From the IMG/VR virus record IMGVR_UViG_3300047388_000258, positions 1-47,869 of that record: DNA of 47,869 nt. One strand, 5' to 3'. Below are positions 4,666 through 30,338 of the stretch, one piece after another (position 1 is the first letter of the stretch; every line of letters starts with the position of its first letter). Origin of the DNA: a virus. The notes under the pieces were generated by a model. That model saw nothing but the letters and a program-made list of their open reading frames with translations, made no database searches and was not told where the DNA came from. The translations under genes and the position numbers were made by a program.

Positions 4666-4685
4666 CCTATCGGAGGTCCCCCACC

Positions 4686-11505: not shown

Positions 11506-11764
11506 GGGCATCGAAGATGCCCTTAACGACGCCATCGCGGACGTGATACTCATCCACGAGCAGGGTTTTGTCACGAAGTGGGTGTGTCTCATTGAGACTG
11601 TCGATTCCGAGGGTGAGCGGGGTGTATGGTCCTGCACTAGTGACAGCATGGCCCCGTGGGACATCTTGGGGTTGCTCCAGTACGCTACGGAAAAGGAAAA
11701 GCTGAACCTGGTGTTGAGTCGGACTCGTGAATTGGGCGAGGACGCTGATGGCGACGCAGGCTGA
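11468..11764 (+). CDS. Small protein between the terminase subunits (98 aa)
   Basis: GTG 11468 is used here; ATG 11477 is an equally possible start. The sequence (ALNDAIADVILIHEQGFVTKW, then GVWSCTSDSMAPWDILGLL) belongs to a small family common in actinophage operons, with no known activity. It overlaps the small terminase by 38 bases and the large terminase by 17, so it is translationally embedded in the packaging operon. Confidence 0.7.
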   Translation: MSWMQETPASTGEGIEDALNDAIADVILIHEQGFVTKWVCLIETVDSEGERGVWSCTSDSMAPWDILGLLQYATEKEKLNLVLSRTRELGEDADGDAG

Positions 11765-13763
11765 GCTGCTCCAGAAGCTTCAGGCGTTGTCCAAATACGC
11801 CTGGTACTGTCCGGACCCCAAATGTCCGGGAGACCCGCACGATGTATATCTGAATCGGCACGCCCGCCCAAACCAACGGCCCCCGCAGAGTGACTGGTGG
11901 GGGTGGTTTCTGCGGTCCGGCCGGGGGTTCGGCAAGACCAGAAGCGGGTCTGAGTTCGTCAAAGATAGGATGCTTACGATTCCGGGTCACCGCGTCGCTA
12001 TCATCGTCCCGGACTTCGGTGTCGGCCGAGACGTGTGCATCGAAGGCCGCTCCGGACTGCACGGACCGACCGCCGGGGAAGGCGTCATCCCCAAGAATAG
12101 AATAAAGCTGTGGAACAGGTCTCTCGGAGAACTGGTTCTCGATAATGGCTCAATAGCCAAGATTTTCGGTTGTGATAAGCGAAAAGACGCTGAAAAGCTC
12201 CGTGGATTCGAGTTCTCGACGGCATGGTTCGAAGAGTTGGGTTCCTGCGCCTACGGTGAGGTCGCGTGGGACATGCTGGAGTTCGGTTTGCGTGCCGACG
12301 ACCCCAAGGTGGTCATCACCAGCACACCCCGACCCACCCCGCTGATCAAGCGCCTGTGCGCGGACCCCGACATCCTCGTGGTCACGGGATCGACGTACGA
12401 CAACATCGACAACCTCGCCCCCAAGTTTGCCGCACGTATCAAACGCAGGTACGAAGGCACCACACTGGGTCGGCAAGAGCTGTACGGCGAGATCCTGGAC
12501 GGCTCGGACGGAGCCCTGTGGAGCTACGACATTATCCAGCGGGTGGCCGAGGCTCCGCACCTTGTGACGGTAGTGGTAGCCGTAGACCCGGCCGGCACGG
12601 CGCACGCCACATCCGACCTCACCGGAATCCTCGTTATGGGACTCGGTGAAGACGGCAAGATCTACGTTCTGGCCGACAAGTCGGACCGGTATTCACCTGA
12701 GCAGTGGCGCAAAGTCGTGGTGCAGGCGTACGAGGACTACAACGCCGATGCCGTGGTGGCCGAAGTCAACTTCGGCGCCGACATGGTTGCCGCCAACTTG
12801 CGGACCTCGGACATCGGTGTGCGGCCAGTGTTCGTTCCGGTCCGGGCCAGCCGGGGCAAGGCGATCCGCGCTACCCCCGTGGTCGGGCTGTACGAGCAGG
12901 GCCGCGGGCGGCATGTCGGAACGTTCCCGGAGTTGGAGGTCGAACTGACCACGTGGGTTCCACCCGGTCAGTTCGATGCGGACGGCGAGCCGATTCCGGA
13001 GTCGAAGTGGTCCCCGAACCGCCTGGACGCGCTGTGCCTAGTGGGTGACACACCTGTGCTTACCGCTGTGGGGGGGGTGGAGATCTCTCGTGTTCGTGTG
13101 GGGGACCGCGTGTGGACTCGCAACGGGTGGCGTCGGGTGGCCGCTGCTGGGATATCCCGCCGGTCAGCCCCCATCCTCGAAGTGGCGATAAGCGACGGAT
13201 CAAGTCTCCGGGGAACGGGTAACCACCCCGTTTGGGTGGTAGGGCGCGGTTGGGTTCGCATCGATGCACTGGTATGTGGCGATACACTGGACGCATGGAC
13301 CACGACGAAGCGGCGAAGTGGCATGGGTCTGAAGCGGGGCGAAGGTGGCACTCGGAGAAGTCCCTCCAACAGTGGGCTAACCCCACGACGTATGCCCGAA
13401 TATGCCAGGCGTCTCGATGCGGCACTGTGTTTGTGGCGTACAACGCGGACGCTGTTTACTGTTCTAGGGCGTGTGCCCGGTGGGCGGAGGACCAAGAGCA
13501 TCGCTACGAGGTCGAGGTACCGTGTCCCGTTTGTGACATCCCCTTTTGGCAGAGTAAGTACCGACCCAAGCCGGCCCACTGCTCCAGTTCGTGTGGTTGG
13601 GTTGCGCGACGCAGGCGTAGCTGATGTGTACGATCTCGCGGTGGCTGAGACGCACGAGTTTGTGGCCTCCGGTGTGGTGGTGCACAACTGTTGGGGCGCG
13701 ACCCACCTCGCGCTGAAGCCTCGGCGTCCCCGCAGCAGGATGCGATTCCCGATCCTCGGTTGA
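11748..13763 (+). CDS. terL: Terminase large subunit, interrupted by an intein (671 aa precursor)
   Basis: The packaging motor ATPase/nuclease. Walker A is at about residues 57-64 (SGRGFGKT), Walker B at about 156-163 (FSTAWFEE), the coupling motif at TSTPRP, and the RNase H-like nuclease begins at VAVDP (about 277-281), continuing with EVNFGAD. At residue 430 the conserved SPNRLDAL is interrupted by the intein; CWGATHLAL resumes at residue 648. After splicing the protein would be about 453 residues, the usual family size. The first block CPDPKCPGDP resembles a small Cys pair seen in actinophage TerL. The gene ends inside the -35 box of the next promoter. Confidence 0.9.
   Translation: MATQAELLQKLQALSKYAWYCPDPKCPGDPHDVYLNRHARPNQRPPQSDWWGWFLRSGRGFGKTRSGSEFVKDRMLTIPGHRVAIIVPDFGVGRDVCIEGRSGLHGPTAGEGVIPKNRIKLWNRSLGELVLDNGSIAKIFGCDKRKDAEKLRGFEFSTAWFEELGSCAYGEVAWDMLEFGLRADDPKVVITSTPRPTPLIKRLCADPDILVVTGSTYDNIDNLAPKFAARIKRRYEGTTLGRQELYGEILDGSDGALWSYDIIQRVAEAPHLVTVVVAVDPAGTAHATSDLTGILVMGLGEDGKIYVLADKSDRYSPEQWRKVVVQAYEDYNADAVVAEVNFGADMVAANLRTSDIGVRPVFVPVRASRGKAIRATPVVGLYEQGRGRHVGTFPELEVELTTWVPPGQFDADGEPIPESKWSPNRLDALCLVGDTPVLTAVGGVEISRVRVGDRVWTRNGWRRVAAAGISRRSAPILEVAISDGSSLRGTGNHPVWVVGRGWVRIDALVCGDTLDAWTTTKRRSGMGLKRGEGGTRRSPSNSGLTPRRMPEYARRLDAALCLWRTTRTLFTVLGRVPGGRRTKSIATRSRYRVPFVTSPFGRVSTDPSRPTAPVRVVGLRDAGVADVYDLAVAETHEFVASGVVVHNCWGATHLALKPRRPRSRMRFPILG
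13283..13288 (+). promoter_or_regulatory. -10 box TACACT six bases before the intein-nested ATG
   Basis: TACACT ends at 13288 and the nested ATG is at 13295, the same six-base spacing seen at six other leaderless starts in this window. No convincing -35 hexamer is at 16-18 bp (ATCGAT at 17 bp). Confidence 0.4.
13295..13624 (+). CDS. Zinc-finger protein nested in the intein in another frame, homing-endonuclease-associated type (109 aa)
   Basis: This frame is -1 relative to terminase. It begins MDHDEAAKWHGSEAGRRWHS, then carries two Cys4 fingers: RICQASRCGTVF with YCSRAC, and CPVCDIPF with HCSSSC, and ends in a basic tail ARRRRS. The WHGSEAGRxWH-plus-two-fingers layout resembles insertions that normally sit in frame between intein blocks B and F of Hint inteins in actinobacteria and phages. 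Here it is out of frame but intact, starting where block B ends and stopping just before block F. Either it is expressed separately from the leaderless start, or two indels displaced its frame. No HNH catalytic motif is seen. Confidence 0.6.
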   Translation: MDHDEAAKWHGSEAGRRWHSEKSLQQWANPTTYARICQASRCGTVFVAYNADAVYCSRACARWAEDQEHRYEVEVPCPVCDIPFWQSKYRPKPAHCSSSCGWVARRRRS

Positions 13764-13788
13764 CACTGTTGGCAGTACAGTGTAGGTT
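13760..13788 (+). promoter_or_regulatory. Strong promoter TTGACA-N17-TAGGTT for the sugar cassette
   Basis: A consensus -35 TTGACA (13760-13765) overlapping the terminase stop, a 17-bp spacer and -10 TAGGTT (13783-13788). The spacer and flanks contain repeated TTGGCA words (13770, 13788 and 13820 region), which may be operators. It is the best SigA match in the window and precedes the sugar genes. Confidence 0.75.
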
Positions 13789-13815
13789 GGCAATAACGAT
13801 GATTGGCGGCCAGTG

Positions 13816-13977
13816 ATGTTGGCAGGACCGGAGCGCGACTGGTTTACCAGCGCCGTTGAGTTTCTGCACCGGCTCACTGCCGATCACAGCCCAGACCTCA
13901 CGCTTCCGGAGATGAGCGACATCACGGTCATCGAGATCACGGTAGTCCACTTGCGCAAACTACTCGACTCTGACTGA
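13816..13977 (+). CDS. Small hypothetical protein (53 aa)
   Basis: The frame from ATG 13816 gives MLAGPERDWFTSAVEFLHRL followed by LPEMSDITVIEITVVHLRKL. A GTG directly before the ATG is an alternative start. It appears to be a small helical protein. No family is recognised. It is the first gene after the TTGACA promoter and precedes the methyltransferase by 10 bases. Confidence 0.5.
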   Translation: MLAGPERDWFTSAVEFLHRLTADHSPDLTLPEMSDITVIEITVVHLRKLLDSD

Positions 13978-13987
13978 AAGGCTCGAA

Positions 13988-15127
13988 GTGAAGGTACCGA
14001 TCCTAGACCTCGGGTTGACCCCGCTGGCAGACCAGTTCCCGGCGACGTCAGCCGAGGCGTACGCACAGGAGCTGTACCCGCTGGGCCTGACGGTAGACGA
14101 CCAGACGTGGACCGTCGAGTTGACTCACCACGTTCCGGACGAGCTGCTGTTCGGCGACGGTTACGCGTTCCTAACCGGGTCGTCCCCCGCGCTGAAGACG
14201 TACTTCGAGAACTACGCGGAGTGGGTGGCAGAGCGGTATGATCACCTGTTTCCCCAGGGTGTCTGTGAGATCGCCTGCAACGACGGCACGCTGTTGCAGC
14301 ATTTCAACCACACTCGGCATCTCGGTATCGACCCGGCCAAGCCTGCGATCACCGAGGCCAAGCGCAAGGGGCTCAGTACCGCCCACATGGCGTTTGACAA
14401 TGACACGGCACACGACATCGAAGAACCGTTCGGCGTGGTCATCGCCAACAACGTAGCCGCCCACGCAAGCAGCCTAGAAGACTTTCTGGCCGGCGTTGCG
14501 TATCTGATCCGCGACGGTGGCGTCGGGATCATCGAGTTCCAGTATGTGGGGGACCTGCTCAGTGACGCACTGTGGACGGTGGTGTACCACGAGCACCGGA
14601 GGTTCCTGTCCCTGACTAGCTTCATGGCCGCGTGCCCGGATGAGATGCACGTGGTTGACGTGCTGCGGACGCCGACCCAAGGCGGTTCGCTACGCGTCGT
14701 GGTGAACACCACGTCTGGCAACCCCTCCGGTGCGGTGCTGGACCTTCTGGAGAAAGAGGCGTGGCTGTGTCGGCTCGACACGTACACCTCGCTTCAAGGT
14801 CGCGTGGACTACCAGGTGGATCGGCTGTGGTCGGCACTGGAGAACCTCGGAACGATGACGCTGTACGGGGCACCGGCCAAGGCCACCACGCTGGTCCACT
14901 ACGCCGGATTGGTTAACATGATCGACTACGCGGAGGATCTGACACCCGGAAAGATCGACCGATACCTTCCTGGGACGGATATCCTGGTGGTAAAACCGGG
15001 CACACACAGCCGCCCGTCGGCGTATCTGGTCGCGATCGACAATTACTTGTCCAGCACCCTGAGCCGCGAGAGCACGTTTCTGGCCGACGGTGGTCGTTTC
15101 GTCTTGCCGAACGGAAAGGTGATCTGA
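13988..15127 (+). CDS. Sugar C-methyltransferase-like SAM-dependent enzyme (379 aa)
   Basis: GTG 13988. The N-terminus has LGLTPLADQFP, matching the PLAN/PLADxF start of nucleotide-sugar C-methyltransferases, though their usual zinc-binding Cys cluster is absent. The SAM-binding core is at about residues 88-110 (VCEIACNDGTLLQHF) with a downstream FGVVIANNVAAHASSLEDFL. The C-terminal domain shows the family's YGAPAKATTLVHYAGL and KIDRYLPGTDI motifs. Such enzymes (TylC3/NovU type) add a methyl branch to a 4-keto-6-deoxy sugar bound to a nucleotide. With the GDP-mannose dehydratase downstream it would make a branched deoxy sugar. Confidence 0.8.
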   Translation: MKVPILDLGLTPLADQFPATSAEAYAQELYPLGLTVDDQTWTVELTHHVPDELLFGDGYAFLTGSSPALKTYFENYAEWVAERYDHLFPQGVCEIACNDGTLLQHFNHTRHLGIDPAKPAITEAKRKGLSTAHMAFDNDTAHDIEEPFGVVIANNVAAHASSLEDFLAGVAYLIRDGGVGIIEFQYVGDLLSDALWTVVYHEHRRFLSLTSFMAACPDEMHVVDVLRTPTQGGSLRVVVNTTSGNPSGAVLDLLEKEAWLCRLDTYTSLQGRVDYQVDRLWSALENLGTMTLYGAPAKATTLVHYAGLVNMIDYAEDLTPGKIDRYLPGTDILVVKPGTHSRPSAYLVAIDNYLSSTLSRESTFLADGGRFVLPNGKVI

Positions 15128-15128
15128 C

Positions 15129-15338
15129 ATGAGCACACTGTTTGACGAAAAAGTAGGTGCGATAGCGCAACTCCTGGGGAGGTACGTAACCGTGTCCGAC
15201 TCCAAAACCGCCATGACCGGCCGATTCGTCAAGTTGGAGTACGTGATAACGCGGGGGATTGAAAGCGTCTTGGTCGTTCTCGATTATGGGTACGCCATGC
15301 CGGTGTCAGTGGGCCTGACTGTTAGAGAGGGTGACTAG
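15129..15338 (+). CDS. Small hypothetical protein (69 aa)
   Basis: ATG 15129 lies one base after the methyltransferase stop. The product begins MSTLFDEKVGAIAQLLGRYV and has a beta-rich C-terminal half (VKLEYVITRGIESVLVVLD). It might be a small barrel domain. No family is recognised. It is inside the sugar operon but need not be an enzyme. Confidence 0.6.
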   Translation: MSTLFDEKVGAIAQLLGRYVTVSDSKTAMTGRFVKLEYVITRGIESVLVVLDYGYAMPVSVGLTVREGD

Positions 15339-15339
15339 C

Positions 15340-16284
15340 GTGCGGGTGTTGGTCACGGGTGTCACAGGGCAAGATGGTTACTACCTCGCCGAGCTGCACG
15401 CCAAACGCGGCGACGAGGTCTTCGCGCTGGTGCGTGGTCAGCGGCCGGTTGTACTGCCCGAAGGCGTCACCGAGATCCGGGGCGACCTGCTCGATCAGAT
15501 GAGCCTAGTCAACGCCGTGAAGACCGCTCAGCCCGACACGGTCTACAACCTGGCCGCCGTGGCGTCCATAGCCGCGTCGTGGGGCTCGCCGGACCTGGTG
15601 GCCAACGTGACCGGCCTGGGCGTCTTGCGGCTGCTGGAGGCCGTCCGAACGGTGGCACCAGGAGCCTCGTTCGTCCATGCCTCGACATCGGACATGTTCG
15701 GTAACTGGGCCGGTGTGTCCACCGAGAACACACCGTTCGACCCCAAGACACCCTACGGCTGTGCCAAGCTGTACGCCCACCAGATGTGCCGTACCTACCG
15801 CGATGCGTACGGCATGCGGATCTCGACGGCAATTTTCTACCCGCACACCAGCCCCCGACAGGGTTCCGGGTTCATCATCCCCAAGGTGACCCGCGCGGCG
15901 GTCGCTATATCGCGAGGGTTCCAGACAGAGCTACGCCTCGGCAACATCGACGTGGTGCGCGACTGGGGCTGGTCGTACGACTACGTGCGTGCGTTCCCAA
16001 TCCTAGCTTCACGGGATGCCGCCGTCGGTGACTACATCCTGGCCACCGGTGTCAAGGCCAACCTCGCTAAGTTGTGTCAACTGGCATTCGACTCGGTCGG
16101 GTTGGACTGGGTGGACCACGTCAAGGTGGACGACTCGTTCTATCGGCCCACCGACGTTAAGTCCCAACAGGGTTGTCCATCCAAGGCTTGGACCGAGTTG
16201 GGTTGGAGGGCGCGCGTAGGACTGCCCGAGACTGTTCGTCGCATGGTGGAGCACGCCAAGACGGAGCTGGGGTGGCCGACGTGA
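15340..16284 (+). CDS. GDP-mannose 4,6-dehydratase-like short-chain dehydratase (314 aa)
   Basis: GTG 15340 is chosen because GAGAGGG lies 8 bases upstream; GTG 15331 is an alternative. The Rossmann NAD(P)-binding loop is GVTGQDGYYLAEL (residues 7 onward), followed by GDLLDQMSL, and the active site is STSDMFG (about 115-121) with Tyr139 and Lys143 in YGCAKLYAH. The GQDG loop and SDMFG are hallmarks of GDP-mannose 4,6-dehydratase, which makes GDP-4-keto-6-deoxymannose. The product would feed the C-methyltransferase and the glycosyltransferases nearby. Confidence 0.85.
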   Translation: MRVLVTGVTGQDGYYLAELHAKRGDEVFALVRGQRPVVLPEGVTEIRGDLLDQMSLVNAVKTAQPDTVYNLAAVASIAASWGSPDLVANVTGLGVLRLLEAVRTVAPGASFVHASTSDMFGNWAGVSTENTPFDPKTPYGCAKLYAHQMCRTYRDAYGMRISTAIFYPHTSPRQGSGFIIPKVTRAAVAISRGFQTELRLGNIDVVRDWGWSYDYVRAFPILASRDAAVGDYILATGVKANLAKLCQLAFDSVGLDWVDHVKVDDSFYRPTDVKSQQGCPSKAWTELGWRARVGLPETVRRMVEHAKTELGWPT

Positions 16285-17009
16285 CCAAGGTGGTGGTGGG
16301 CGGCACCCTGTGTGCCTACGCGATGCTCGACCCCGCTCGACCGTGGCTGTGGGGTGCGTGGCTGCACAACGCTGAGGAGATGATCCGGACCTCGCCGTTC
16401 GACGTTGAGTTCCACACGTCGATCCAGGTGGACGCCCGCGGTATCGAACCGTTTGCCCCGCTGTTGAGGAGGCTCTACGAGATCGGCGGCACGCACTGGA
16501 CGTTTTCCCTGGACGACGGGCGCATCCGGGTCACCGGTGAGAACCGCGGACGGCACATCTGCACCGGGATCAACCTGACGGTTGAGTATGCTACCTCGGT
16601 GGGCGCTACCCACTGGCTGAGGCTGGAGGCGGATACGGAGGCTCCTCCGGACGTGATCCCGCGCTTGCTGGAGGTTGGTAACGGCCTGGCTGCGGCGGCG
16701 TGCTCGACGTACTTCACGTACGACAACCCCGACTATTGGGCCCGTGCTCCGCAGTACGATTTCCCGGTGGTCGAAGGGCCGATGGCTGCTGTGTGCCTGC
16801 TGGTCGAACGCGAGGTCTTCAAGCGGTTGAAGTGGCGTTGGGACCCGGACGAGCAGACAACGGACGACCCGAGTTATACGCAGGACGCCAAAGATTTCTT
16901 CGGCGTGCCGACGCTGACTCGGCTGGATTGCGTGGCGTCGCATTGGCCACCTGCCATAGGCCCCGTGGACACCAGGTACGGCGATCTAGACATGGGGGTT
17001 CAGAGATGA
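16281..17009 (+). CDS. GT-A fold glycosyltransferase (242 aa)
   Basis: GTG 16281 overlaps the dehydratase stop. The sequence has the GT2-like nucleotide-sugar layout: an N-terminal strand TKVVVGGTLCAY, a metal-binding acidic motif in WLRLEADTEAPPD (about residues 114-126), and an acceptor-side segment VEGPMAAVCLLVEREVFKRL followed by TDDPSYTQDA. It is cytoplasmic, with no membrane segment. It probably transfers the sugar made by the upstream enzymes to a phage protein; the acceptor is unknown. Confidence 0.75.
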   Translation: MTKVVVGGTLCAYAMLDPARPWLWGAWLHNAEEMIRTSPFDVEFHTSIQVDARGIEPFAPLLRRLYEIGGTHWTFSLDDGRIRVTGENRGRHICTGINLTVEYATSVGATHWLRLEADTEAPPDVIPRLLEVGNGLAAAACSTYFTYDNPDYWARAPQYDFPVVEGPMAAVCLLVEREVFKRLKWRWDPDEQTTDDPSYTQDAKDFFGVPTLTRLDCVASHWPPAIGPVDTRYGDLDMGVQR

Positions 17010-17170
17010 CCTGGCTTATTGTGGGCGATGCGGTACTATCATTGGTGGTGGGTGCTGTGGCCGGGGCAGTTGCCACGGTACGTAAGCTACCTGTAATCTT
17101 GGCTAGGATGTCGCCGAACCAGATCGATGAACTGGCGGCCCGGACGGCGGAGGTGAAGCGATCAGCCTAA
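17006..17170 (+). CDS. Small single-pass membrane protein (54 aa)
   Basis: ATG 17006 overlaps the glycosyltransferase stop (ATGA). A membrane helix spans about residues 5-23 (IVGDAVLSLVVGAVAGAVA), followed by a helical cytoplasmic tail (PNQIDELAARTAEVKRS). Its last codons tca gcc taa lie in the degenerate copy of the portal start; in the ancestral arrangement the gene probably ended two codons earlier in ATGA overlapping the portal start. Confidence 0.65.
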   Translation: MTWLIVGDAVLSLVVGAVAGAVATVRKLPVILARMSPNQIDELAARTAEVKRSA

Positions 17171-17200
17171 ATGATCTTGTTGCCCCTGAGGCTGGGCTGG
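17161..17200 (+). repeat. Degenerate upstream copy of the portal gene start
   Basis: Positions 17161-17200 match 17724-17763, the first 40 bases of the portal gene, at 30 of 40 positions, with no gap. The start codon is ATC here and ATG in the downstream copy. Translated, ISLNDLVAPEAGL aligns with MSLSDLVLRAAGL. It marks the left edge of the HNH insertion. Confidence 0.75.
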
Positions 17201-17208
17201 TTGCTGGA

Positions 17209-17727
17209 TTGGGAGCTGTTCGTGAGGTTCCTGTTGCTCCCAGTTACACAGCGCTAGTCGACGCTGTCGACTACGATCGAGTAGTAACAGCGGGGCCGTG
17301 GCGCGCACAGGCGTCAGGCAGTGTAGACAACCCTATAAACTATGCTAAAACCCATACCACCCGCAACGGGGTTGATACCAGCTTGTACATGCACAACTTG
17401 GTGTCAGGCGGCGGGTTGACGGACCATAAAAACAGCGACGGTCTAGACAACAGACGAGACAACCTTCGGGCTGCGACACACCAGCAGAACATGGGTAATC
17501 AACGCCCACGATTGGGTCGATCGTCGCGGTATAAGGGCGTATCGTGGTGCAAGGCGGTTGGTAAGTGGCGTGCGTATATTCGGGTGCATGGGGAACAGCG
17601 GCACCTTGGGTGTTTTGATGCGGAGTTGGACGCCGCATTGGCTTATGATCTGGCCGCGCAGAAGCCGGACCCGGACGGATTTGGCGAGTTCGCACGCCCC
17701 AACTTGGTGACGTGGGGATCGATATGA
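17209..17727 (+). CDS. HNH homing endonuclease with AP2 DNA-binding domain (172 aa)
   Basis: The N-terminal half has the HNH core: LYMHNLVSGGGLTDHKNSDG (about residues 59-78) then LDNRRDNLRAATHQQNMGNQ. The C-terminal half is an AP2-type three-stranded DNA-binding domain, SSRYKGVSWCKAVGKWRAYI with HLGCFDAELDAALAYDLAA. These are free-standing homing endonucleases that nick phage DNA to spread. The start is uncertain: TTG 17209 is the first usable codon, but the frame is open upstream through the degenerate portal start. Its stop overlaps the portal ATG (ATGA). Confidence 0.85.
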   Translation: MGAVREVPVAPSYTALVDAVDYDRVVTAGPWRAQASGSVDNPINYAKTHTTRNGVDTSLYMHNLVSGGGLTDHKNSDGLDNRRDNLRAATHQQNMGNQRPRLGRSSRYKGVSWCKAVGKWRAYIRVHGEQRHLGCFDAELDAALAYDLAAQKPDPDGFGEFARPNLVTWGSI

Positions 17728-17763
17728 GCCTAAGCGATCTTGTCCTCCGGGCAGCTGGGCTGG
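17724..17763 (+). repeat. Functional copy of the portal start, right flank of the HNH insertion
   Basis: Partner of the 17161-17200 repeat. The two copies flank the HNH gene and differ at 10 of 40 positions, including the start codon, so the downstream copy has taken over as the portal start. Confidence 0.75.
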
Positions 17764-19637
17764 AAACACGCGCCCGGCCGTCGAGGCTTGTCTCCCAATC
17801 GGCCCCTCCCGGCGCCCTAGCGTCACCACTGTATCACGCTGCGCATCAACCCATATGGCCTGAGAACGACCCGCTAGCGGGTGTTTCGGCCGCGTACCAG
17901 CGCAACCTGTACGTGTACCGGGCCATCAACACGATCGCCAACAACATGGTGCAGATTCCGATCCGCGCCGGCGCACTGCCCAATGGTGCATTCCGAACCA
18001 CGGCGCCGCTCGCCCAGCTTCTCGGGCCGCCCCCCGGTTCGCCCAACCCGCTGTGGTCGCCGGCCATGCTGTTGCGCTACGCCATCATCCAGTATTTGGT
18101 GACCGGCAAGTTCGCCTGGGCCATCGAGCGCCGCCCCGGTTCGGACCAGATCGTCGGTTTGTGGCCGATACCGGTGCAGTACCTCAAGCCGGTAATGCCC
18201 GAGCCGGACTCTACCAAGCCCGAGTATTTCGAATCTTTCGACCTGTACACGCGGGGTTCGATCAACTACGTATCGTACAAGCCCCAGGACATTGTCTACT
18301 GCTGGCGCCCGTCGTTGTCGGATCCGCGGCAGCCGGAGTCTCCGCTGAACGTGGCGAAGTCCGAGATCAACGTGATGTGGTTGCTCGGCCAGTTCGACCA
18401 GGCATTTCTTCAGAACGGCGGTGTCCCGTCCCACCTCATCGTGACGAGCCCGTTCGTGGACGACGCCGAGCGCGGCGCGTTCCGCAACCAGTTCAACCGC
18501 AAATTCGGCGGCGTCAGTAACGCCGGCAAGCCGATGTTCGCCGAGCGCGAGTTGGACCTGGGCGACGGTGGGCCTGGGGGTGGTTCGGTCGGAGACCCCG
18601 TTTCGGTCACCAAGATCGGCCAATCGCAGCGGGATTCAGAAATGTCCAACCTGCGGTCCGCCAAGATCGGGGACCTGTCGGTCGGACTGGGCGTTCCGCT
18701 GTCTGTGTTGGGCGACACAAGGGACGCTAAGTTCGAGAACATCGAAGGCGACCGGAAGATCTTCTATCGCGAGACCATCCGGCCCATGCTCCGCGAGTTC
18801 GAGGACATGCTCAACATCCACCTAGCACCTCTGCTGGGAAACGACGTTTGTTGGTTCGACATCACCAAGGTGTACGAGCTGAAGCCGATCCCGCTGTTTT
18901 CCGAGCGGTGGGGGCCGACCTTGGTCGAGTCGGGCATCATCACCCGTGACGAGTACCGCGACGACCTGGGCCTGCCGCCACTGACCGCCGCGCAGAGAGA
19001 CGAGATCGACGCGGCGGGAAACCCGCTGGTCGAAGACATCCCGGCGCCGGGTACCGAGCTGCCGGCCAAGCCGAAGCTGGTCCCGTTGCCCGGCATGGGT
19101 GCACTGAACACCGGGCTGAAACCGAAGGCATCGCCGGCTGGCGTGGTCCCGCCCGGGTACAAGATTGGGCCTAAGTCGCCGCAGGGTGCTCCGCCGAAGG
19201 CCGCGCTGGCGCAGTCTCAGCCGATGATAGCTGTCGCACACAGGGTGAGCCACACCAAGGGTGTCCGAGACGGCTTGATCGACATCTTGGTCATCGACTT
19301 GGCGCACGCGGTGGAGCAGCGAGCCAACTCCCGCCGCAACCGATCGCTGGTCGACGTGCCGTACTGGACCAACCGGTTCCGCACCGTGCTGTCTACCGTG
19401 GTGGACGATCCGCGCACGTTGGGCCGGTGCACCCACACCGCCATCGAGCTGGTGGTTCGGGCGGTTGCGGACGGTAAAATGCTGGACGGCGACGTGACGC
19501 AACGCATCGTCGAAATCTACGACGGATATGATAGCAGTGTGCCGCTGGCCGGTCTGGGCCAGATCCTCGGACAGATGCGGGCAGGAACCATGGACCAGGA
19601 CAGGGCACTCAATATCATTAAGGGCGGTGCGGCGTGA
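17724..19637 (+). CDS. Portal protein (637 aa)
   Basis: The dodecameric portal ring is the DNA entry and exit gate of the head. The start ATG 17724 overlaps the HNH stop; the longer upstream start is inside the HNH gene. The HK97-type portal pattern is clear: AYQRNLYVYRAINTIANNMV (about 53-72), PNPLWSPAMLLRYAIIQYLV, then VYCWRPSLSDPRQPESPLNV, RSAKIGDLSVGLGVPLSVLG and REFEDMLNIHLAPLLG. The C-terminal 150 residues beyond the core include a helical segment (DGLIDILVIDLAHAVEQRAN) longer than the minimal family length. Its stop overlaps the protease GTG. Confidence 0.9.
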   Translation: MSLSDLVLRAAGLETRARPSRLVSQSAPPGALASPLYHAAHQPIWPENDPLAGVSAAYQRNLYVYRAINTIANNMVQIPIRAGALPNGAFRTTAPLAQLLGPPPGSPNPLWSPAMLLRYAIIQYLVTGKFAWAIERRPGSDQIVGLWPIPVQYLKPVMPEPDSTKPEYFESFDLYTRGSINYVSYKPQDIVYCWRPSLSDPRQPESPLNVAKSEINVMWLLGQFDQAFLQNGGVPSHLIVTSPFVDDAERGAFRNQFNRKFGGVSNAGKPMFAERELDLGDGGPGGGSVGDPVSVTKIGQSQRDSEMSNLRSAKIGDLSVGLGVPLSVLGDTRDAKFENIEGDRKIFYRETIRPMLREFEDMLNIHLAPLLGNDVCWFDITKVYELKPIPLFSERWGPTLVESGIITRDEYRDDLGLPPLTAAQRDEIDAAGNPLVEDIPAPGTELPAKPKLVPLPGMGALNTGLKPKASPAGVVPPGYKIGPKSPQGAPPKAALAQSQPMIAVAHRVSHTKGVRDGLIDILVIDLAHAVEQRANSRRNRSLVDVPYWTNRFRTVLSTVVDDPRTLGRCTHTAIELVVRAVADGKMLDGDVTQRIVEIYDGYDSSVPLAGLGQILGQMRAGTMDQDRALNIIKGGAA

Positions 19638-20830
19638 AGGCGACAACGGAAACCCGATCGGGCGAGATCGTGGAAGTCCGGCAGACCGCCGACGGCGGCC
19701 ACGAAGCCGACATCCGGATCGTGAAGTACGGAGTGGTGGATTCGTACAAGACCCGCTTCATGCCCGGTGTGTTTAAGCGCCAGGTGGCGGAGGGTCAGAT
19801 CGCCTCGGTCTGGGCGCACCAGGTAGATCGGCCGATCGGGGTTGTCACCGACTTCCGCGACTCCTCGGAAGCCTTGGACGGCACGCTGAAGTTCCTACCA
19901 TTCGAGGACTGCCCCGACGCCCGCTTGGCTTGGTCGAGCATGAAGGCCGGCGCCATCAAGGGCATCTCGTTCGGGTTCGAACGACTGGCCGACGAGCGTA
20001 ACGCTCAGCAGTCCGAAGTACGGGACATCACCGACGCCAACCTCTCCGAGGCCTCGCCCGTGCTGAGCCCCGCCGTCCCCGGCGCCAAGGTCCTCGCGGT
20101 GCGCAGCGACGCCTCGGCCGAGATGCCCGAGAAGGATGCCGCTGCGGTGATCCGATGGTTCGCGGATGCCACCGACGAGGAGCGGTCCAAGTTCTTGGCG
20201 CTGCTCCCCGAGACCCGCGAAGACGAGCACGCCGCGACCCACGAGTTCCGAGCGCTGGTCGACACTCCGGACATCGACCCGATGCAGGTGCTGTCGGACA
20301 TCAACGGGCACGTCGCCAAGCTGCACGAAGCTCTCGACGCGGATGACCTGCACAAGGCCAAGAACTTTTTCCAGCAGGCCGCGGACAAGCTGCGCACTCT
20401 TCAGTACGCGGTGGGTGTCAAGCCGAGCGCGCTGGCGGCCGGGACGTACAGCGACTACGCGGCACCCGAGGGTGAGGTCCGCGAAGACGACACGGTGGTC
20501 GAGACGGTGGAAGAGCCGGACGAGTTCCCAGCCGAACTGCTCGGTCCGGACGCCGACGAAGACGTGCTCTCCGGCCTGGACGCGCTGACCCGCGGCAAGA
20601 ACCCGAAGATGCCGTACGGCAACGTCAGCTACGCCGACCCCGGCTACCAGGCCGACAAGAAGAAGCGATACCCGCTGACCGCCGACAAGGTTCAGGCGGC
20701 GTGGTCGTACATCAATCAGGACAAAAACCAGACGCCGTACACGTCGGCGCAGCTCGCCAGCATCAAGGGCAAGATCAAGACCGCCATGACGAAGTTCGGG
20801 CACAAGGTAAACGACGGAGGCACGGCGTGA
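19634..20830 (+). CDS. HK97-family prohead protease with C-terminal DUF6582-like domain (398 aa)
   Basis: GTG 19634 overlaps the portal stop. The serine protease core has His62 (SVWAHQVDRPIG) and Ser112 (GAIKGISFGFE), the catalytic residues of herpesvirus-like prohead proteases that mature the capsid. A helical acidic middle could act as scaffold (LHEALDADDLHKAKNFFQQA). The C-terminal 60 residues (VSYADPGYQADKKKRYPL, then VQAAWSYINQ and IKGKIKTAM) match a domain often found on its own in phages and bacteria and here fused to the protease. Confidence 0.85.
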   Translation: MKATTETRSGEIVEVRQTADGGHEADIRIVKYGVVDSYKTRFMPGVFKRQVAEGQIASVWAHQVDRPIGVVTDFRDSSEALDGTLKFLPFEDCPDARLAWSSMKAGAIKGISFGFERLADERNAQQSEVRDITDANLSEASPVLSPAVPGAKVLAVRSDASAEMPEKDAAAVIRWFADATDEERSKFLALLPETREDEHAATHEFRALVDTPDIDPMQVLSDINGHVAKLHEALDADDLHKAKNFFQQAADKLRTLQYAVGVKPSALAAGTYSDYAAPEGEVREDDTVVETVEEPDEFPAELLGPDADEDVLSGLDALTRGKNPKMPYGNVSYADPGYQADKKKRYPLTADKVQAAWSYINQDKNQTPYTSAQLASIKGKIKTAMTKFGHKVNDGGTA

Positions 20831-21420
20831 GCAATGGAGTCGATCTGACGGGTCACTCCACCCTGGCAGTGGTGGAGAAGTACGACGACGACCAGGTCGC
20901 GTGGGTTGAGAGCCAGACCGGCATACTTGCCCCAAGCGGCGATGTCCTGCGCGCGCACGTCAAGCCGTACGACGTCATCGTTGACGATTCCCCTAACCTG
21001 ACCACCACCAACGGCCTGGGCCGGCTGACCAACTTCTTGATCGGCACGGGTTCGCTGGTCGGGTTCGACTCTACTCACACCATGCTGGGTGTCGGTGACG
21101 CCAACACCGCTGCCACCGCAGCGGACACCCACCTCGGGTCGGACTCGGCGGCGCATTCGTACTACGTCGCTACCGGTGCGCCTACGCGAGTCACCACGAC
21201 CGTCACCAACGACTCGATCCAGGCCGCCGCGACGTTCAACACGTCGAACTCGGACTTCGCCTGGCAGGAGTGGGGGTTCGTGCTGGTCACCACGCCGGCC
21301 GCGTCGGCTACGTTCGCGGGCACCGGCACTTCGCCGATCCTGTTCAACCACAAGATCCAATCGTTCGGTACGAAGTCCGGCGGAAGCTGGGTGCTCACCG
21401 CTACCTTGACCTGGTCGTAA
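20827..21420 (+). CDS. Probable virion structural protein (197 aa)
   Basis: GTG 20827 overlaps the protease stop. The product is beta-rich with GRLTNFLIGTGS, THTMLGVGDANTAATAADT, NSDFAWQEWGFVLVTT, and ends in TATLTWS. Comparable proteins occur among head and minor structural genes of actinophages and have no assigned role. Position between the protease and fibre-like genes suggests a head-decoration or tail-attachment protein. Confidence 0.65.
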   Translation: MSNGVDLTGHSTLAVVEKYDDDQVAWVESQTGILAPSGDVLRAHVKPYDVIVDDSPNLTTTNGLGRLTNFLIGTGSLVGFDSTHTMLGVGDANTAATAADTHLGSDSAAHSYYVATGAPTRVTTTVTNDSIQAAATFNTSNSDFAWQEWGFVLVTTPAASATFAGTGTSPILFNHKIQSFGTKSGGSWVLTATLTWS

Positions 21421-21442
21421 GCCAACGGAAGGCAATCTGACC

Positions 21443-21694
21443 GTGGATACCATTTACCGGTTCACGTGCCCGATCACCGGCACAGGGGTCGACTTGACCA
21501 CCCCCGACGTGATACCCCCGCAGTGGAACGAACTGTCGGGTAACCCTGTGTCTCCGATGGGCCAACTTCTGGTGGCTCAACGGCTGTTGTGGACGCTCCA
21601 TCAGGGCCTACCAGCACCGAGCCCGTCGGAGATTCTGGCTGCTCATCCGTGCCCGCTGGACCCACCAGCAGGCACCCAGATAACGACGATGTGA
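21443..21694 (+). CDS. Small hypothetical protein (83 aa)
   Basis: GTG 21443 has a GGAAGG site. The product begins MDTIYRFTCPITGTGVDLTT and has one other Cys near the C-terminus. The middle (GQLLVAQRLLWTLHQGL) is helical. No family is recognised. It lies between two virion proteins. Confidence 0.6.
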   Translation: MDTIYRFTCPITGTGVDLTTPDVIPPQWNELSGNPVSPMGQLLVAQRLLWTLHQGLPAPSPSEILAAHPCPLDPPAGTQITTM

Positions 21695-21695
21695 C

Positions 21696-22745
21696 ATGGC
21701 TGACAACACAGTTCTTAACACCATGTCGGGTGGGGACACCATTCAGACCGATGACTCTGCGGCCGGGTACAAAACCCAGGTGGTCAAAGTTTCCTACGGT
21801 GCGGATGGTGCGGCGCCCACTCGCGTGGTGGCCGGCACGGGTCTGCCAGTTCAACAGCAGGATTACACCACTACAGCCAACATCACGACACAGAACCTAG
21901 TCCCGACAGGTACGGCTACCGCTGGCTCTGTATGCCAGACAGCAGCGCTCAATGGAGCCTGTCAGGTAGCCATTCAGGTCACAGGGACTTACACCGGTAC
22001 GTTGACGCCTCAGGGCACCGTTGACGGGGCGACGTGGCAGACGTTGGGCTCCTCGACTGCTCTACAGGTGAACTCTAACGGCTCATTCCAGGGCTCCATT
22101 ACGTCAGCTACCCAGGGTGTCTTTTTCGCCAACGTAGCTGGATTCAGTAAGTTCAGGATCTCAGCGAACGGTGCGGTCACTGGTACTGCGGTAGTCACTC
22201 TTCAGGTGTCCAATGGTTCAGGACAGATTCCAAGTACGATCACTGTAGGTAACAACCCAACCGTCACGGGTCCGCAGGCTAAGGCAGGCATCGCTGCTAA
22301 CGGCTTCCCACAGCTCACCTTGGGGGCTACAGCACTGCCTACAGCGGTTACCAATGGTCAGCTAGTCATGCCTATGGCGGATAAGCTTGGCCGGACGGTA
22401 GTCGTACACAATGCGATGCGGGATCTAGTAACCCCGGTCACACAGCTAGTCCTCACAGCCAGTACAGCTGAGACGACATTGGTTGGCGCCACCGCGTCGA
22501 CGTTTCATGATCTATTGGAGGTGACTTTCTGCAATAGCTCACTGACCACAGCGACGCAGGTTGATATCCGTGATAGCACTGGCGGTACTGTCCGCTGCTC
22601 CGTCTTCGTTCCGGCCGGCAGTACGGTAGTCAAGGCTTGGCACACCCCGCTGCCTCAGGCGACTGTGAACACGAACTGGACTGCTCAGTGTGGTTCGTCG
22701 GTTAGCTCACTGACAATCACTGGCTCCTACGTATCTAACAACTGA
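21696..22745 (+). CDS. Beta-rich virion surface protein, lower GC codon use (349 aa)
   Basis: ATG 21696 is one base after the preceding stop. The protein is Thr/Ser/Val/Gly-rich with repeated strand patterns: QVAIQVTGTYTGTLTPQGTV, GVFFANVAGFSKFRISANG, VTLQVSNGSGQIPST, and a C-terminal domain with TSTAETTLVGATAS-like and DSTGGTVRCSVFVPAGS. This resembles Hoc-like or decoration proteins seen on phage heads. Codon third positions are less GC-rich than in neighbours (many gct, cct, aca), a sign of acquisition from another phage. Confidence 0.6.
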   Translation: MADNTVLNTMSGGDTIQTDDSAAGYKTQVVKVSYGADGAAPTRVVAGTGLPVQQQDYTTTANITTQNLVPTGTATAGSVCQTAALNGACQVAIQVTGTYTGTLTPQGTVDGATWQTLGSSTALQVNSNGSFQGSITSATQGVFFANVAGFSKFRISANGAVTGTAVVTLQVSNGSGQIPSTITVGNNPTVTGPQAKAGIAANGFPQLTLGATALPTAVTNGQLVMPMADKLGRTVVVHNAMRDLVTPVTQLVLTASTAETTLVGATASTFHDLLEVTFCNSSLTTATQVDIRDSTGGTVRCSVFVPAGSTVVKAWHTPLPQATVNTNWTAQCGSSVSSLTITGSYVSNN

Positions 22746-22764
22746 TCGTAGGGAGGGGTAGGCT

Positions 22765-24051
22765 GTGCTTCTATTCCTCCCGCTGATCCCTACTCAGAAG
22801 TCGAACTCGGACGCGTCTTCAGGTGTCGACACCGGTGGGTTGACCAGCTACGTCGGCTCCTACGCGGACAACACCCTCACGCCGGGCACCACACCACCCA
22901 ATACTGCGGGTGGCGACACCTCGGTGTGCCTGGGGCAGGTTTTCTACCTATCTGAGGCACAGGTCATCACGGGTGTGCAATACTACCGATCAGACGGCAC
23001 CTGGGACGGCACCGATATCCTTGTGGGCGTCTGGGACCCCTCCGGTAATTTGCTGGCCACAGCTACATCCACACAAGACCTGCTAGAGCCCGTGGGCTGG
23101 GTGCAGGTCCTTTTTCCCATACCTCTCGAACTGGCCCTTCTGGGCGTGGGTAACCAATACACCGTCGGCTACCGCACGGGCGGAGTTAACCTCGGGCACT
23201 ACGCGTACAGTGCGGGGTTCTTCTCCTCGGACTACTCGAACGGCGCGTACAACGTACCCGCTAATGGCGGTCGGTTCAAATACGTGTTCGGTCCCGCGTT
23301 GGACCAGCCAGACCACGGAACCAGTAGCGGGTATTTCGTAGATGTCGTTACCGTGCCCACGGGTCTCGGTACAGACGCCACCGCAGGTTCCGACACGAGT
23401 GCACTAAGCGTCGATCAGTCCGTGTCGGATACGTTGTCCGGAGCAGATACCGAGACTCTCAACTCTGCGGTTGCTGGCAATGACACAGTCTCGCTGATTG
23501 ACACTACCATAGCGCAAGTCACGACTAATGCTACCGATGCGATAACAACCACCGAGTCGGCCTCTGTATCCGTTGTTCAGACGGGTGTAGACGATACCGC
23601 AAGTGTGGAAGCCGGATCGGGTTCGGTCTTCGTTACGGCGGCCGACATTGGCACCCTGATCGAAACGGGGATGGCCGGCGAGAGCATCGTTGGATCGGAT
23701 ACCGGCTCGTCTGCAGACTCTGGTACAGCGACTCCTGGGTTGTTCAGCACAGATGTCACAGCTTCGTCAGAAACGGGTGTCGCCTCCGTCGCGGATCTTG
23801 GATCGGATACCGCTGCGGCCGCTGACTCCGCCGGCGTGTCCGCCTCCCTCCTGGGTATGGATGCTGCGTTGACGGCGGAGCTTTCTGTCCTCGTGGTGGC
23901 TGGTGCAGGGATCGAATCTGCCACGGGATCCGACACGGCAAGTGTGAATAAGCTCGGAGTGCCGAAACGAATCAAGTCGGAGAGCATCGCACAGCGCCCC
24001 GACACCGTATCCTCGGTACGTACCCCACGAACGGAGACGACACGTCGATGA
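22765..24051 (+). CDS. DUF4082-domain protein with Asp/Ser/Thr repeat tail, fibre-like (428 aa)
   Basis: GTG 22765 has GGGAGGGG upstream. Residues about 55-180 form a DUF4082 domain (ITGVQYYRSDGTWDGTDILV, VGVWDPSGNLLATATS, QYTVGYRTGGVNLGHYAYS), a carbohydrate-binding-like beta sandwich. From residue 205 to about 400 the chain is built of loose repeats around the words GSDT, DTAS and ETGV (for example TGSDTASV and VAGNDTVS), with almost no charged residues except Asp and Glu. This composition suits an extended fibre or spacer. The last 25 residues are basic. Confidence 0.65.
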   Translation: MLLFLPLIPTQKSNSDASSGVDTGGLTSYVGSYADNTLTPGTTPPNTAGGDTSVCLGQVFYLSEAQVITGVQYYRSDGTWDGTDILVGVWDPSGNLLATATSTQDLLEPVGWVQVLFPIPLELALLGVGNQYTVGYRTGGVNLGHYAYSAGFFSSDYSNGAYNVPANGGRFKYVFGPALDQPDHGTSSGYFVDVVTVPTGLGTDATAGSDTSALSVDQSVSDTLSGADTETLNSAVAGNDTVSLIDTTIAQVTTNATDAITTTESASVSVVQTGVDDTASVEAGSGSVFVTAADIGTLIETGMAGESIVGSDTGSSADSGTATPGLFSTDVTASSETGVASVADLGSDTAAAADSAGVSASLLGMDAALTAELSVLVVAGAGIESATGSDTASVNKLGVPKRIKSESIAQRPDTVSSVRTPRTETTRR

Positions 24052-24365
24052 TCGACATGACGATGCGCGCCGGTGAGACCCTGACGGTTGACAGCCAGGT
24101 GACTAACGCGGATGGGTCACCCCGGGACATCTCGGGTGCCGCCGTCTCATTTTCGGTGTGGGACGGCCCGGCCCTTGGTTCGCTAGAAGTGGTCGGCACC
24201 GGGGTTGTGACCAACGGTCCGGCCGGGGACATAACCGCTTACCTGATCGACAGTGCTACCGATGAGTACGCTGGCCAGCGGCACGTCTTCTACTACAAGA
24301 TCTCCCTGACCGAGGTCAACGGTACCGAGACCGTGATCGAGGATGGAAAGCTGATCATCCAGTGA
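24048..24365 (+). CDS. BppU-like beta-sandwich protein (105 aa)
   Basis: ATG 24048 overlaps the preceding stop. The sequence (MTMRAGETLTVDSQVTNADG, then AAVSFSVWDG and RHVFYYKISLTEVNG) is like the N-terminal Ig-fold domain of phage baseplate/upper-collar BppU proteins, which adopt a beta sandwich. Here it stands alone. A structural attachment role is inferred. It overlaps the next gene by 4 bases. Confidence 0.6.
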   Translation: MIDMTMRAGETLTVDSQVTNADGSPRDISGAAVSFSVWDGPALGSLEVVGTGVVTNGPAGDITAYLIDSATDEYAGQRHVFYYKISLTEVNGTETVIEDGKLIIQ

Positions 24366-25306
24366 CGACCCAGGTCTACGCGCATGCAAAGTGCGCGTCT
24401 TTTTTCTACCGACTGGCCGAGCCCGCCCGCGTGCTCGGGGTCGAAGTGGTCGAGCACCCCGGCCACGTCACAGCCGACACTGTCGTCACCCAACGACCTT
24501 TGCTCCCCGAGCTGGCCGACCTGGTGGTCAAGTGGGTGGCCGAAGGCCGACGGGTGGTGGTGGATTCGGACGACTCTTTCGACCACCTCGACCCGGCGCA
24601 CGGCATCCACGGCCACTACAAGACCGAGCACTACCACCGTGCGTGCAAGGCTGCCACGGTCAACACCACTACCACCCCCGGCCTGGCCAAGCTGTACGGC
24701 TACGGTAAGGCCGCCGTGCTGCCCAACTGCGTCCCCGAGTCGTACCTTCGCTCAGCCCCACGCGGTCGGCGTTCGCCCGAGCCGTGGATCGGCTGGTCCG
24801 GCTCGATCAGCGCTCACCCCAACGACCTCGCGGTGACCGGTGCTGGCATCGCCAAGGCGATCAAAAGCACGCGAGCCCGGGTCGTCTATCTCGGACCGGA
24901 GCGAGACGAAGCCACGATCAGTCGTCAACTCAGCGTGCGTGACGTCATGCCGCTTGGTTTCGTGTCGTTGCTCGGCTTCCCGTCGGTCATCGCGGAGTAC
25001 GACATCGGCATCGTGCCGCTAGAGCCGATCCCGTTCAACACGAAGATGAAGTCGTGGCTCAAGGGAATCGAACTGGCGGCGTGTGGCGTGCCGGTGGTGG
25101 CGAGCCCCACCGAAGACTACCGCCGGTTGGCCAAGCTGGGTGCCTGTCTCCTGGCCAAGACCCCGGCCCATTGGTACGAGCACGTGAGTCGCCTGTTGCA
25201 CGACGAATCGTTCCGATCAGAACAGGCCCAGCGCGGTCGAGAAGCGATGCGCGATTGGACATACGAGAAGCGTGCTGATCTGTGGCGAGAGGCCTGGGGC
25301 TTGTAG
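24362..25306 (+). CDS. GT-B fold glycosyltransferase, GT4-like (314 aa)
   Basis: GTG 24362 overlaps the preceding stop. The C-terminal nucleotide-sugar-binding half shows IGWSGSISAHPND, RARVVYLGPERDEA, and the donor-binding helix WLKGIELAACGVPVVASPTED, all typical of GT4-type glycosyltransferases. The N-terminal half is short and holds VVVDSDDSFDHLDPAHGIH, often seen in phage and bacterial members. It is the last gene before the capsid promoter. Together with 16281-17009 it gives two glycosyltransferases flanking the head genes. Confidence 0.8.
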   Translation: MTTQVYAHAKCASFFYRLAEPARVLGVEVVEHPGHVTADTVVTQRPLLPELADLVVKWVAEGRRVVVDSDDSFDHLDPAHGIHGHYKTEHYHRACKAATVNTTTTPGLAKLYGYGKAAVLPNCVPESYLRSAPRGRRSPEPWIGWSGSISAHPNDLAVTGAGIAKAIKSTRARVVYLGPERDEATISRQLSVRDVMPLGFVSLLGFPSVIAEYDIGIVPLEPIPFNTKMKSWLKGIELAACGVPVVASPTEDYRRLAKLGACLLAKTPAHWYEHVSRLLHDESFRSEQAQRGREAMRDWTYEKRADLWREAWGL

Positions 25307-30009: not shown

Positions 30010-30338
30010 GGCTGCGCCACATCCTCAAGGACAACAACCTGATCGGTTGCCTAGAATACGACCTTCGGAGGTATCTCGATGTGGATCTCCGAGGGTTGTA
30101 CTCCAGCCCACGCACCATCACGCAGCGGCAAGTCATGGTGTGGCTTCGGTACCTGCCGAGTGACGCGGCACTGTCCCGCCGCGGACTCGCCGGCGATCGA
30201 CGGTCGGACATGACCGAGATTCTTCAGGTGGCCACGCTCAACGAGCTGCGACTGTTGAATAATTACTACGTGCGAAGCCATTCTAACGGTGAGATAGACG
30301 AGCCCGACCTGTTGTCGATCGAGAACGAGGAGGTGTGA
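29994..30338 (+). CDS. Tail assembly chaperone, frameshifted C-terminal part T
   Basis: This frame has no good start of its own (only a TTG at 30006) and is reached by the -1 shift at about 29994, giving a GT fusion of about 270 residues from 29527 to 30338. The T part reads IEEFLRLRHILKDNNLIGCL, then DLRGLYSSPRTITQRQVMVW and LRLLNNYYVRSHS, typical of the C-terminal half of mycobacteriophage-type chaperones. Its stop overlaps the tape measure start (TGATG). Confidence 0.85.
   Translation: MEEFLRLRHILKDNNLIGCLEYDLRRYLDVDLRGLYSSPRTITQRQVMVWLRYLPSDAALSRRGLAGDRRSDMTEILQVATLNELRLLNNYYVRSHSNGEIDEPDLLSIENEEV

Follow-up and report, generated by a model that had tools for sequence, protein, structure and literature searches.

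The window analysed here, the whole 47,869-nucleotide stretch of viral DNA in IMG/VR record IMGVR_UViG_3300047388_000258, carries a set of four predicted sugar enzymes within its head gene block (Table 1). A first-pass annotation had described a GDP-mannose 4,6-dehydratase (GMD)-like enzyme, a TylC3-like C-methyltransferase, a GT-A glycosyltransferase and a GT4 glycosyltransferase, the last directly before the capsid gene. All four genes are present at these places, three of them with strong family matches, and no gene lies between the end of the GT4 gene and the start of the capsid gene. The description of the set as embedded among head genes also holds, with terminase, portal, protease and capsid genes all around it. 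The third-position GC content of the cassette genes (0.78-0.81) is like that of the structural genes, and none of the four enzymes contains a strong membrane segment. In the nearest relative, contig L100, genes for TerL, the methyltransferase (45% identity), the SDR (48%), the GT-A protein (50% over its full length) and the portal follow one another in the same order as in the window; the 69-aa ORF has no counterpart there.

Table 1. Features of the cassette and of the surrounding head gene block in the window.
Feature	Coordinates	Strand	Basis
Terminase large subunit with intein; upstream cassette border	11727..13763	+	PF03237 3e-14; PF14890 8.6e-8; TIGR01443 (intein C-terminus)
TTGACA with overlapping perfect inverted repeat; putative promoter/operator	13760..13783		
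53-aa ORF between terminase and methyltransferase	13816..13977	+	
Sugar C-methyltransferase (predicted), SAM-dependent, TylC3/TcaB9-like, phage clade	13988..15127	+	PF08484; PF08242; 4rv9; alignments; tree
69-aa ORF between methyltransferase and SDR, no function assigned	15129..15338	+	
GDP-mannose-4,6-dehydratase-derived SDR	15331..16284	+	PF16363; 1rpn; motif table; tree
GT-A-like glycosyltransferase	16281..17009	+	L100 homologue; hhalign; AF2 model
54-aa ORF after GT-A, one hydrophobic segment (max KD 2.25)	17006..17170	+	
Portal protein; downstream cassette border	17712..19637	+	PF04860 1.2e-33
Second S/T-rich (25%) head-region protein; candidate acceptor	21696..22745	+	
Structural-type protein with DUF4082 and 25% Ser+Thr; candidate acceptor	22765..24051	+	PF13313 1.7e-17
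GT4-type glycosyltransferase, last gene before capsid gene	24362..25306	+	PF13524; phrog_7162
Major capsid protein, HK97 fold; candidate acceptor	25679..26926	+	PF05065 1e-30

By its domains and catalytic residues, the methyltransferase is a predicted member of the NDP-sugar C3-methyltransferase family. It matches PF08484 (E=6e-20; 72 bits, over the 23.5 cut-off), the SAM domain PF08242 (1.5e-7, over cut-off) and the structures of TylC3 (4rv9, E=7e-40) and TcaB9 (8e-39), with which it shares 31-35% identity and the C-terminal Methyltransf_14 domain. The TcaB9 residues Tyr76, His181, Tyr222, Glu224 and His225, which we take to be catalytic, are identical in the aligned window protein (Y59, H159, Y200, E202 and H203), and this Tyr, His, Tyr, Glu, His set is retained in essentially all 63 phage sequences. 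In contrast to TylC3 and TcaB9, the phage clade carries the signature YHEHR, with QGG in place of HGG, and the window copy has lost the zinc site. All four zinc cysteines are gone, the first pair being cut off and the second replaced by D and T, and the N-terminal zinc domain PF08421 scores 29.3 bits, below its 31.3 cut-off. These cysteines are common rather than universal, the second pair also being missing from four of the best 80 bacterial relatives listed. The window methyltransferase sits on a long branch of the tree, and its substrate is a prediction.

The SDR is homologous over its full length to GMD (PF16363, E=5e-82; PDB 1rpn, E=5e-78) and keeps the fold signature of the GDP_Man_Dehyd family, with the NAD(P) motif GxxGQDG (Rossmann), Tyr-x3-Lys, RDWG and RPxxV; GTG 15340 offers an alternative start. 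It departs from 1rpn at the catalytic Glu (Glu128 in GDP-mannose dehydratase; PMC3539893), which is replaced by Asp (TSD) in the window and in L100, and in having YPHTSP (YPHTSPRQG) for FNHESP. Its score against the NCBIfam equivalog TIGR01472 is 245.8 bits, below the cut-off of 415. In 24 related phage SDRs the same Glu is replaced by Ala with Tyr-x3-Lys retained, and the window SDR falls outside this Ala clade in the tree. With Asp at the catalytic Glu, the window enzyme is not classifiable as a true dehydratase. A second SDR of the ketoreductase or epimerase type was found on none of the 29 contigs searched, the GMD-like SDR being the sole PF01370 protein in the window. The host may therefore finish the sugar, and a diverged or host ketoreductase/epimerase may carry out the post-methylation step.

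The GT4 enzyme matches PF13524 (E=4e-9) and phrog_7162 (E=4e-28), with PF13692 also over cut-off, and is 32-35% identical to the L087 and L088 proteins. Its relatives (cluster 6) occur in 18 loci and, in other phages, share a cassette with the methyltransferase gene. The GT-A protein, which probably starts at GTG 16281, overlapping the SDR stop, matched no model in the profile libraries. In the DxD region it aligns with a GT2 cluster (hhalign E=0.0011), and it has a putative A-D-x-E metal-site motif after a Rossmann-like run of strands. An AlphaFold model from the single sequence had a pLDDT of 37; an AF2 model built with 13 sequences reached pLDDT 53 and pTM 0.52, which is weak, with ArnC and SpsA as the best structural matches. 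The gene is real, and its product has a predicted GT-A-like topology in this low-confidence model.

An earlier claim that the first three genes have a TTGACA promoter of their own is not supported. The window contains 14 copies of the hexamer, where chance alone would give 18; the site at 13760 has a poor -10 and is for that reason not listed by a promoter scanner. It overlaps a perfect inverted repeat (ACACTGT-N7-ACAGTGT, 13763-13783), and short repeats of this kind arise by chance.

A profile search recovered the phage-type methyltransferase clade from 65 metagenomic viral contigs, and tblastn found it in no isolated actinophage. Alignment-based searches were needed, since scans of viral contigs with single proteins (methyltransferase, GT-A, GT4 and capsid) matched nothing; a six-sequence alignment (A1) was too diverse as a scan query, and a GT-A profile returned L100 again and nothing further. 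In other contigs the methyltransferase and SDR genes form a pair between the capsid and head-tail connector genes. An adjacent SDR accompanies all 26 well-flanked head-locus copies versus 2 of 15 at tail loci (Fisher 6e-9, the related contigs not being independent). Nine of the head-locus SDRs are textbook GMDs (Thr/Ser-x-Glu, Tyr-x3-Lys and FNHESPRRG) and eight are RmlB-like, and the pairing of a single methyltransferase clade with two kinds of dehydratase points to their keto-sugar product as the shared substrate. Among the best 80 bacterial loci listed for related methyltransferases, nine contain a CDP-glucose dehydratase and four an RmlB-like enzyme; none contains a GMD by our motif test, and no recent bacterial donor operon was found among them. 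A phage line may once have taken over a dehydratase and C-methyltransferase pair, giving rise to an old phage-only head-operon clade in which the dehydratase of most members (Glu to Asp or Ala) acts after methylation and the virions bear a 3-C-methyl sugar with no known counterpart in their hosts, a scenario that we regard as rather doubtful.

Proteins with at least 20% Ser+Thr account for 20 of the 65 encoded between the methyltransferase and connector genes versus 22 of 617 elsewhere (p=2e-11, from related contigs), and no Wzx-type flippase was found in 29 contigs. Taken together, these structural neighbours and the lack of a flippase make cytoplasmic glycosylation of virion proteins the best reading of the predicted genes, with an acceptor guessed from gene neighbourhood. 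We therefore favour, with modest confidence, a phage sugar-tailoring cassette in which the SDR would make or remodel a nucleotide-bound 4-keto-6-deoxy sugar, probably carried on GDP, to which the methyltransferase would add a methyl carbon. Before the particle is assembled, the GT-A and GT4 enzymes would then move the branched sugar, in the cytoplasm, onto the capsid or onto head proteins rich in Ser/Thr. The first-pass annotation had the set both making and attaching a C-methylated deoxy sugar. This is supported by the recurrence of the module, SDR and glycosyltransferases included, in dozens of contigs, mostly in the head block beside S/T-rich neighbours and with no export genes, and is weakened by a dehydratase that lacks the catalytic Glu and by the missing second SDR. 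Its further idea that the sugar is made by the phage and not the host sits uneasily with the same loss and with an SDR score below the GMD equivalog cut-off. The altered substrate-pocket motifs of the SDR and the lost zinc cysteines also count against our reading.

The Asp for Glu replacement could instead mean that the SDR is no dehydratase. Host GMD would then supply GDP-4-keto-6-deoxymannose, which the phage would methylate and the SDR reduce or epimerise before transfer to the virion. This possibility, which we consider real if improbable, would account for the Ala-type SDRs with their intact Tyr-x3-Lys and would fill a post-methylation step that is otherwise missing, each contig having at most one SDR, so that the Ala-type phages are without a dehydratase. 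However, Asp is itself acidic and could function, the nine related head-locus phages with an intact GMD triad have it in the same slot, and the window SDR is not of the Ala clade. Transfer of the sugar to the host surface, on a wall polymer or lipid carrier and for instance in superinfection exclusion or receptor masking, appears unlikely. C-methyl deoxy sugars do occur in bacterial envelope glycans, as with Coxiella virenose (PMC3539893), cyanophage GMD sets have been interpreted as cell-wall genes (PMC9602691), and the GT4 enzyme has a weak match to TuaH. Nevertheless, surface export is not supported by the flippase search, the set is without a membrane glycosyltransferase, and it lies inside the head block beside S/T-rich structural proteins.

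Hypermodification of phage DNA by the glycosyltransferases, as reported for other phages (Pyle 2024, as cited in PMC12619734), is very improbable and not supported here, as no thymidylate synthase/hydroxymethylase homologue was found in the window, which is incomplete at its polymerase end, or in the head-locus contigs tested; such homologues occurred only in four tail-locus contigs, and the cassette sits with late head genes. Equally hard to credit is that this phage carries the cassette as a functionless passenger in decay. The missing zinc cysteines, the altered catalytic Glu and the long methyltransferase branch would suit decay, but the frames are open, their third-position GC matches that of the structural genes, all methyltransferase catalytic residues are retained and L100 has kept the whole set.

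Phage virion glycosylation is a recent discovery. That it is known in some actinophages, as the annotation stated, is correct, with reports for mycobacteriophages (Freeman 2023, as cited in PMC11256854 and PMC12619734). The actinophages Che8/F1, Corndog/O and Zuko carry glycosyltransferases, some with an O-methyltransferase or UDP-glucose dehydrogenase (PMC11256854, PMC4351075). Those of Corndog and Zuko adjoin head or terminase genes, like the window set, and in Corndog methyl- and glycosyltransferases lie between portal and protease (PMC4351075). Unlike these systems, the window encodes predicted branched-sugar steps; no C-methyltransferase was found in isolate actinophages, and no GMD is reported there. 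The same two-enzyme logic has been proposed for Coxiella, where GMD and the TylC3-like CBU_0691 would lead to GDP-virenose, a 3-C-methyl-6-deoxy sugar of envelope glycans (PMC3539893), although there the sugar goes to LPS and candidate reductases are known, whereas none was found in the window. Cyanophage S-SCSM1 also encodes a GMD with glycosyltransferases, read as cell-wall modification (PMC9602691), but its set makes GDP-fucose and is without a C-methyltransferase. Phage-encoded C-methylation of a coat sugar would be new as far as our literature search reached. We know of no virion-glycosylating phage described so far that makes its own branched sugar. If our reading is right, the phages behind some 65 metagenomic viral contigs build their own coat sugar, which would bear on immune recognition of phages, escape from host enzymes and novel C-methylating enzymes. 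In addition, the occurrence of Glu, Asp or Ala in SDRs paired with a single methyltransferase clade offers a test case for a change of dehydratase function.

Among isolate phages we found no close DNA relative of the window. It may plausibly be an actinophage, but its portal and lysin had no isolate match. The capsids of related contigs are nearest to those of Gordonia and Mycobacterium phages, and in Gordonia phage RavenCo17, a relative without the cassette, the capsid and adaptor genes are one small gene apart.

The window, a whole virus record of 47.9 kb, is a siphophage-type contig of ~62% GC, and no close isolate phage was found for it. From terminase to portal, the gene order includes a C-methyltransferase, a 69-aa ORF, an SDR resembling GDP-mannose 4,6-dehydratase (GMD) and a GT-A-like protein whose start overlaps the SDR stop (GTGA, 16281-16284). 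Gene calls and family matches bear out the earlier observation that a GT4 glycosyltransferase immediately precedes the capsid gene. Third-position GC in the methyltransferase, SDR and GT-A genes (0.78-0.81) resembles the values in structural genes (0.72-0.89), so these three genes did not arrive very recently. A perfect inverted repeat, ACACTGT-N7-ACAGTGT, overlaps TTGACA exactly at the terminase stop codon and could be an operator or chance. The Cys-rich, double zinc-finger-like product of the ORF nested within the mini-intein of the terminase gene may be a remnant or a nested part of a homing endonuclease, and the HNH/AP2 gene, not seen at the corresponding place in the nearest viral contig (L100), is likely a free-standing homing gene adjoining the cassette.

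Features in and around the sugar cassette
Feature	Position	Strand	Remark
GH114-family glycoside hydrolase	4368-5774		upstream of packaging genes
Terminase large subunit	11727-13763		carries mini-intein; 5' border of cassette
Nested ORF	13232-13624		different frame from terminase
Inverted repeat	13763-13783
C-methyltransferase	13988-15127	+
GMD-like SDR	15331-16284	+
GT-A-like protein	16281-17009	+
HNH endonuclease with AP2 domain	17209-17727		between GT-A and portal
Portal	17712-19637		3' border of three-enzyme part
S/T-rich protein	21696-22745		directly upstream of GT4, with next
S/T-rich protein	22765-24051
GT4 glycosyltransferase	24362-25306	+
Tape measure protein	30335-35431

The methyltransferase matches PF08484 (6e-20) and, over almost its full length, TylC3 and TcaB9 (phmmer, ~1e-39). 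Its Tyr59, His159, Tyr200, Glu202 and His203, conserved in essentially all 63 phage sequences, align with TcaB9 Tyr76, His181, Tyr222, Glu224 and His225, the catalytic residues of that enzyme. All four zinc cysteines are missing: a shorter N-terminus removes the first pair, and D and T stand in place of the second. The sister L100 retains the second pair, so the loss is specific to the window phage. Nor would a wrongly called start suffice to account for it, as the second pair has been replaced at internal positions.

Scanning with five phage methyltransferases yielded 65 viral contigs with a related enzyme, including two near-duplicate pairs. In the resulting tree, 61 phage methyltransferases formed a single clade (SH-aLRT 99) separate from the best 80 bacterial relatives, and the enzymes of the window and L100 were sisters (99). 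YHEHR and QGG each mark 61 of 63 phage sequences, whereas bacteria almost always have HGG; EVQY is not independent evidence because it was included in the search pattern. With two clade members as queries, tblastn found no isolated actinophage carrying such an enzyme, the matches being megaphages, faecal phage fragments and one cyanophage. In megaphages L002, L003 and L004 (LR756502, LR745206 and LR756501), C-methyltransferases lie within large sugar-gene islands, and the LR756502 enzyme forms a fusion protein with an SDR and a cupin-like domain.

The first-pass annotation had assigned the SDR as GMD-like, and family membership holds (5e-78 to Pseudomonas GMD, 1rpn), but the enzyme is not classed here as a true GMD. 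The GMD catalytic set is Thr126/Glu128/Tyr150/Lys154 (PMC3539893); here the active-site triplet is Thr-Ser-Asp rather than Thr-Ser-Glu, YPHTSP replaces the pocket motif FNHESP, and the score with the NCBI GMD equivalog model, 245.8, falls short of the cut-off of 415. We therefore call the enzyme GMD-derived. Textbook GMDs occur in nine head-locus phages, a GMD-derived SDR with Ala for Glu in 24 phages and an RmlB-like dehydratase in eight, while the Asp-type enzymes of the window and L100 form their own pair (bootstrap 99, SH-aLRT 95), matching the methyltransferase tree. Given these kinds, and no second such SDR on any contig tested, we infer that the SDR would supply the pre-methylation step in GMD-type and RmlB-type phages and perhaps a step after methylation in Ala-type phages, the window enzyme being intermediate between the two.

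Searches of Pfam, PHROGs and NCBIfam gave no match to the GT-A-like protein. L100 encodes a 50%-identical, full-length homologue at the same place, and profile comparison (hhalign) connected the region around the metal site with a GT2 cluster from related phages (E=0.0011, low probability). A structure model built from 13 sequences is weak (pLDDT 53); its top matches are GT-A enzymes, ArnC and SpsA among them. The GT4 assignment is solid, and GT4 relatives (cluster 6, 18 loci) share cassettes with the methyltransferase in other phages.

The main layout in these phages runs terminase, portal, protease, capsid, glycosyltransferases, methyltransferase, SDR, S/T-rich proteins and head-tail connector; a second layout places the cassette after the tail genes, usually with no SDR. 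Of the 46 loci that had sufficient flanking sequence, an SDR adjoins the methyltransferase in 26/26 head-locus and 2/15 tail-locus copies, a count in which the window and L100 were placed in the head class by hand and related contigs are not independent. In the second-layout contigs (L109, L111, L116, L119, L127, L133, L148, L152, L156 and L158), the C-methyltransferase is accompanied by numerous glycosyltransferases and frequently by a small SAM methyltransferase; most lack an SDR, and a thymidylate synthase homologue occurs in four. The capsid of Gordonia phage RavenCo17 is 40% identical to a main-layout capsid over the matched two thirds, and this phage has no cassette, its order being capsid, one small gene and adaptor.

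The sugar had been proposed to be a phage-made, C-methylated deoxy sugar put on the virion by the two glycosyltransferases. Proteins of the structural region counted as S/T-rich (Ser+Thr content of 20% or more) number 20/65 between methyltransferase and connector versus 22/617 elsewhere, a twelve-fold enrichment (odds ratio), and the window's two most S/T-rich proteins directly precede GT4. No flippase was found in 29 contigs searched, neither the window nor the head-locus contigs tested yielded a thymidylate synthase, and the methyltransferase, SDR, GT-A and GT4 have no strong membrane segment. On these grounds we favour cytoplasmic glycosylation of virion proteins, with the S/T-rich proteins as candidate acceptors. 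The main doubts about this reading of the cassette lie in the active site of the SDR, in the lack of a final step and in the candidate status of the acceptor.

As precedents, passages in PMC11256854 and PMC12619734, citing Freeman 2023, describe glycosylated capsids in F1 mycobacteriophages, and in Corndog methyl- and glycosyltransferase genes separate the portal gene from the protease gene (PMC4351075). The cassette chemistry resembles the pathway through GMD and TylC3 that has been put forward for virenose in Coxiella (PMC3539893). No paper joining phage, C-methyltransferase and virion sugar was found in the open-access literature; we rate virion glycosylation as the known part and phage-encoded C-branching of the sugar as the new part. 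Elsewhere in the window, the GH114-family protein (PF03537, 3e-48), unusual in phage, is possibly a wall or capsule depolymerase, and the tape measure protein shows an NlpC/P60-like match, its C-terminal part resembling lysozyme/transglycosylase.
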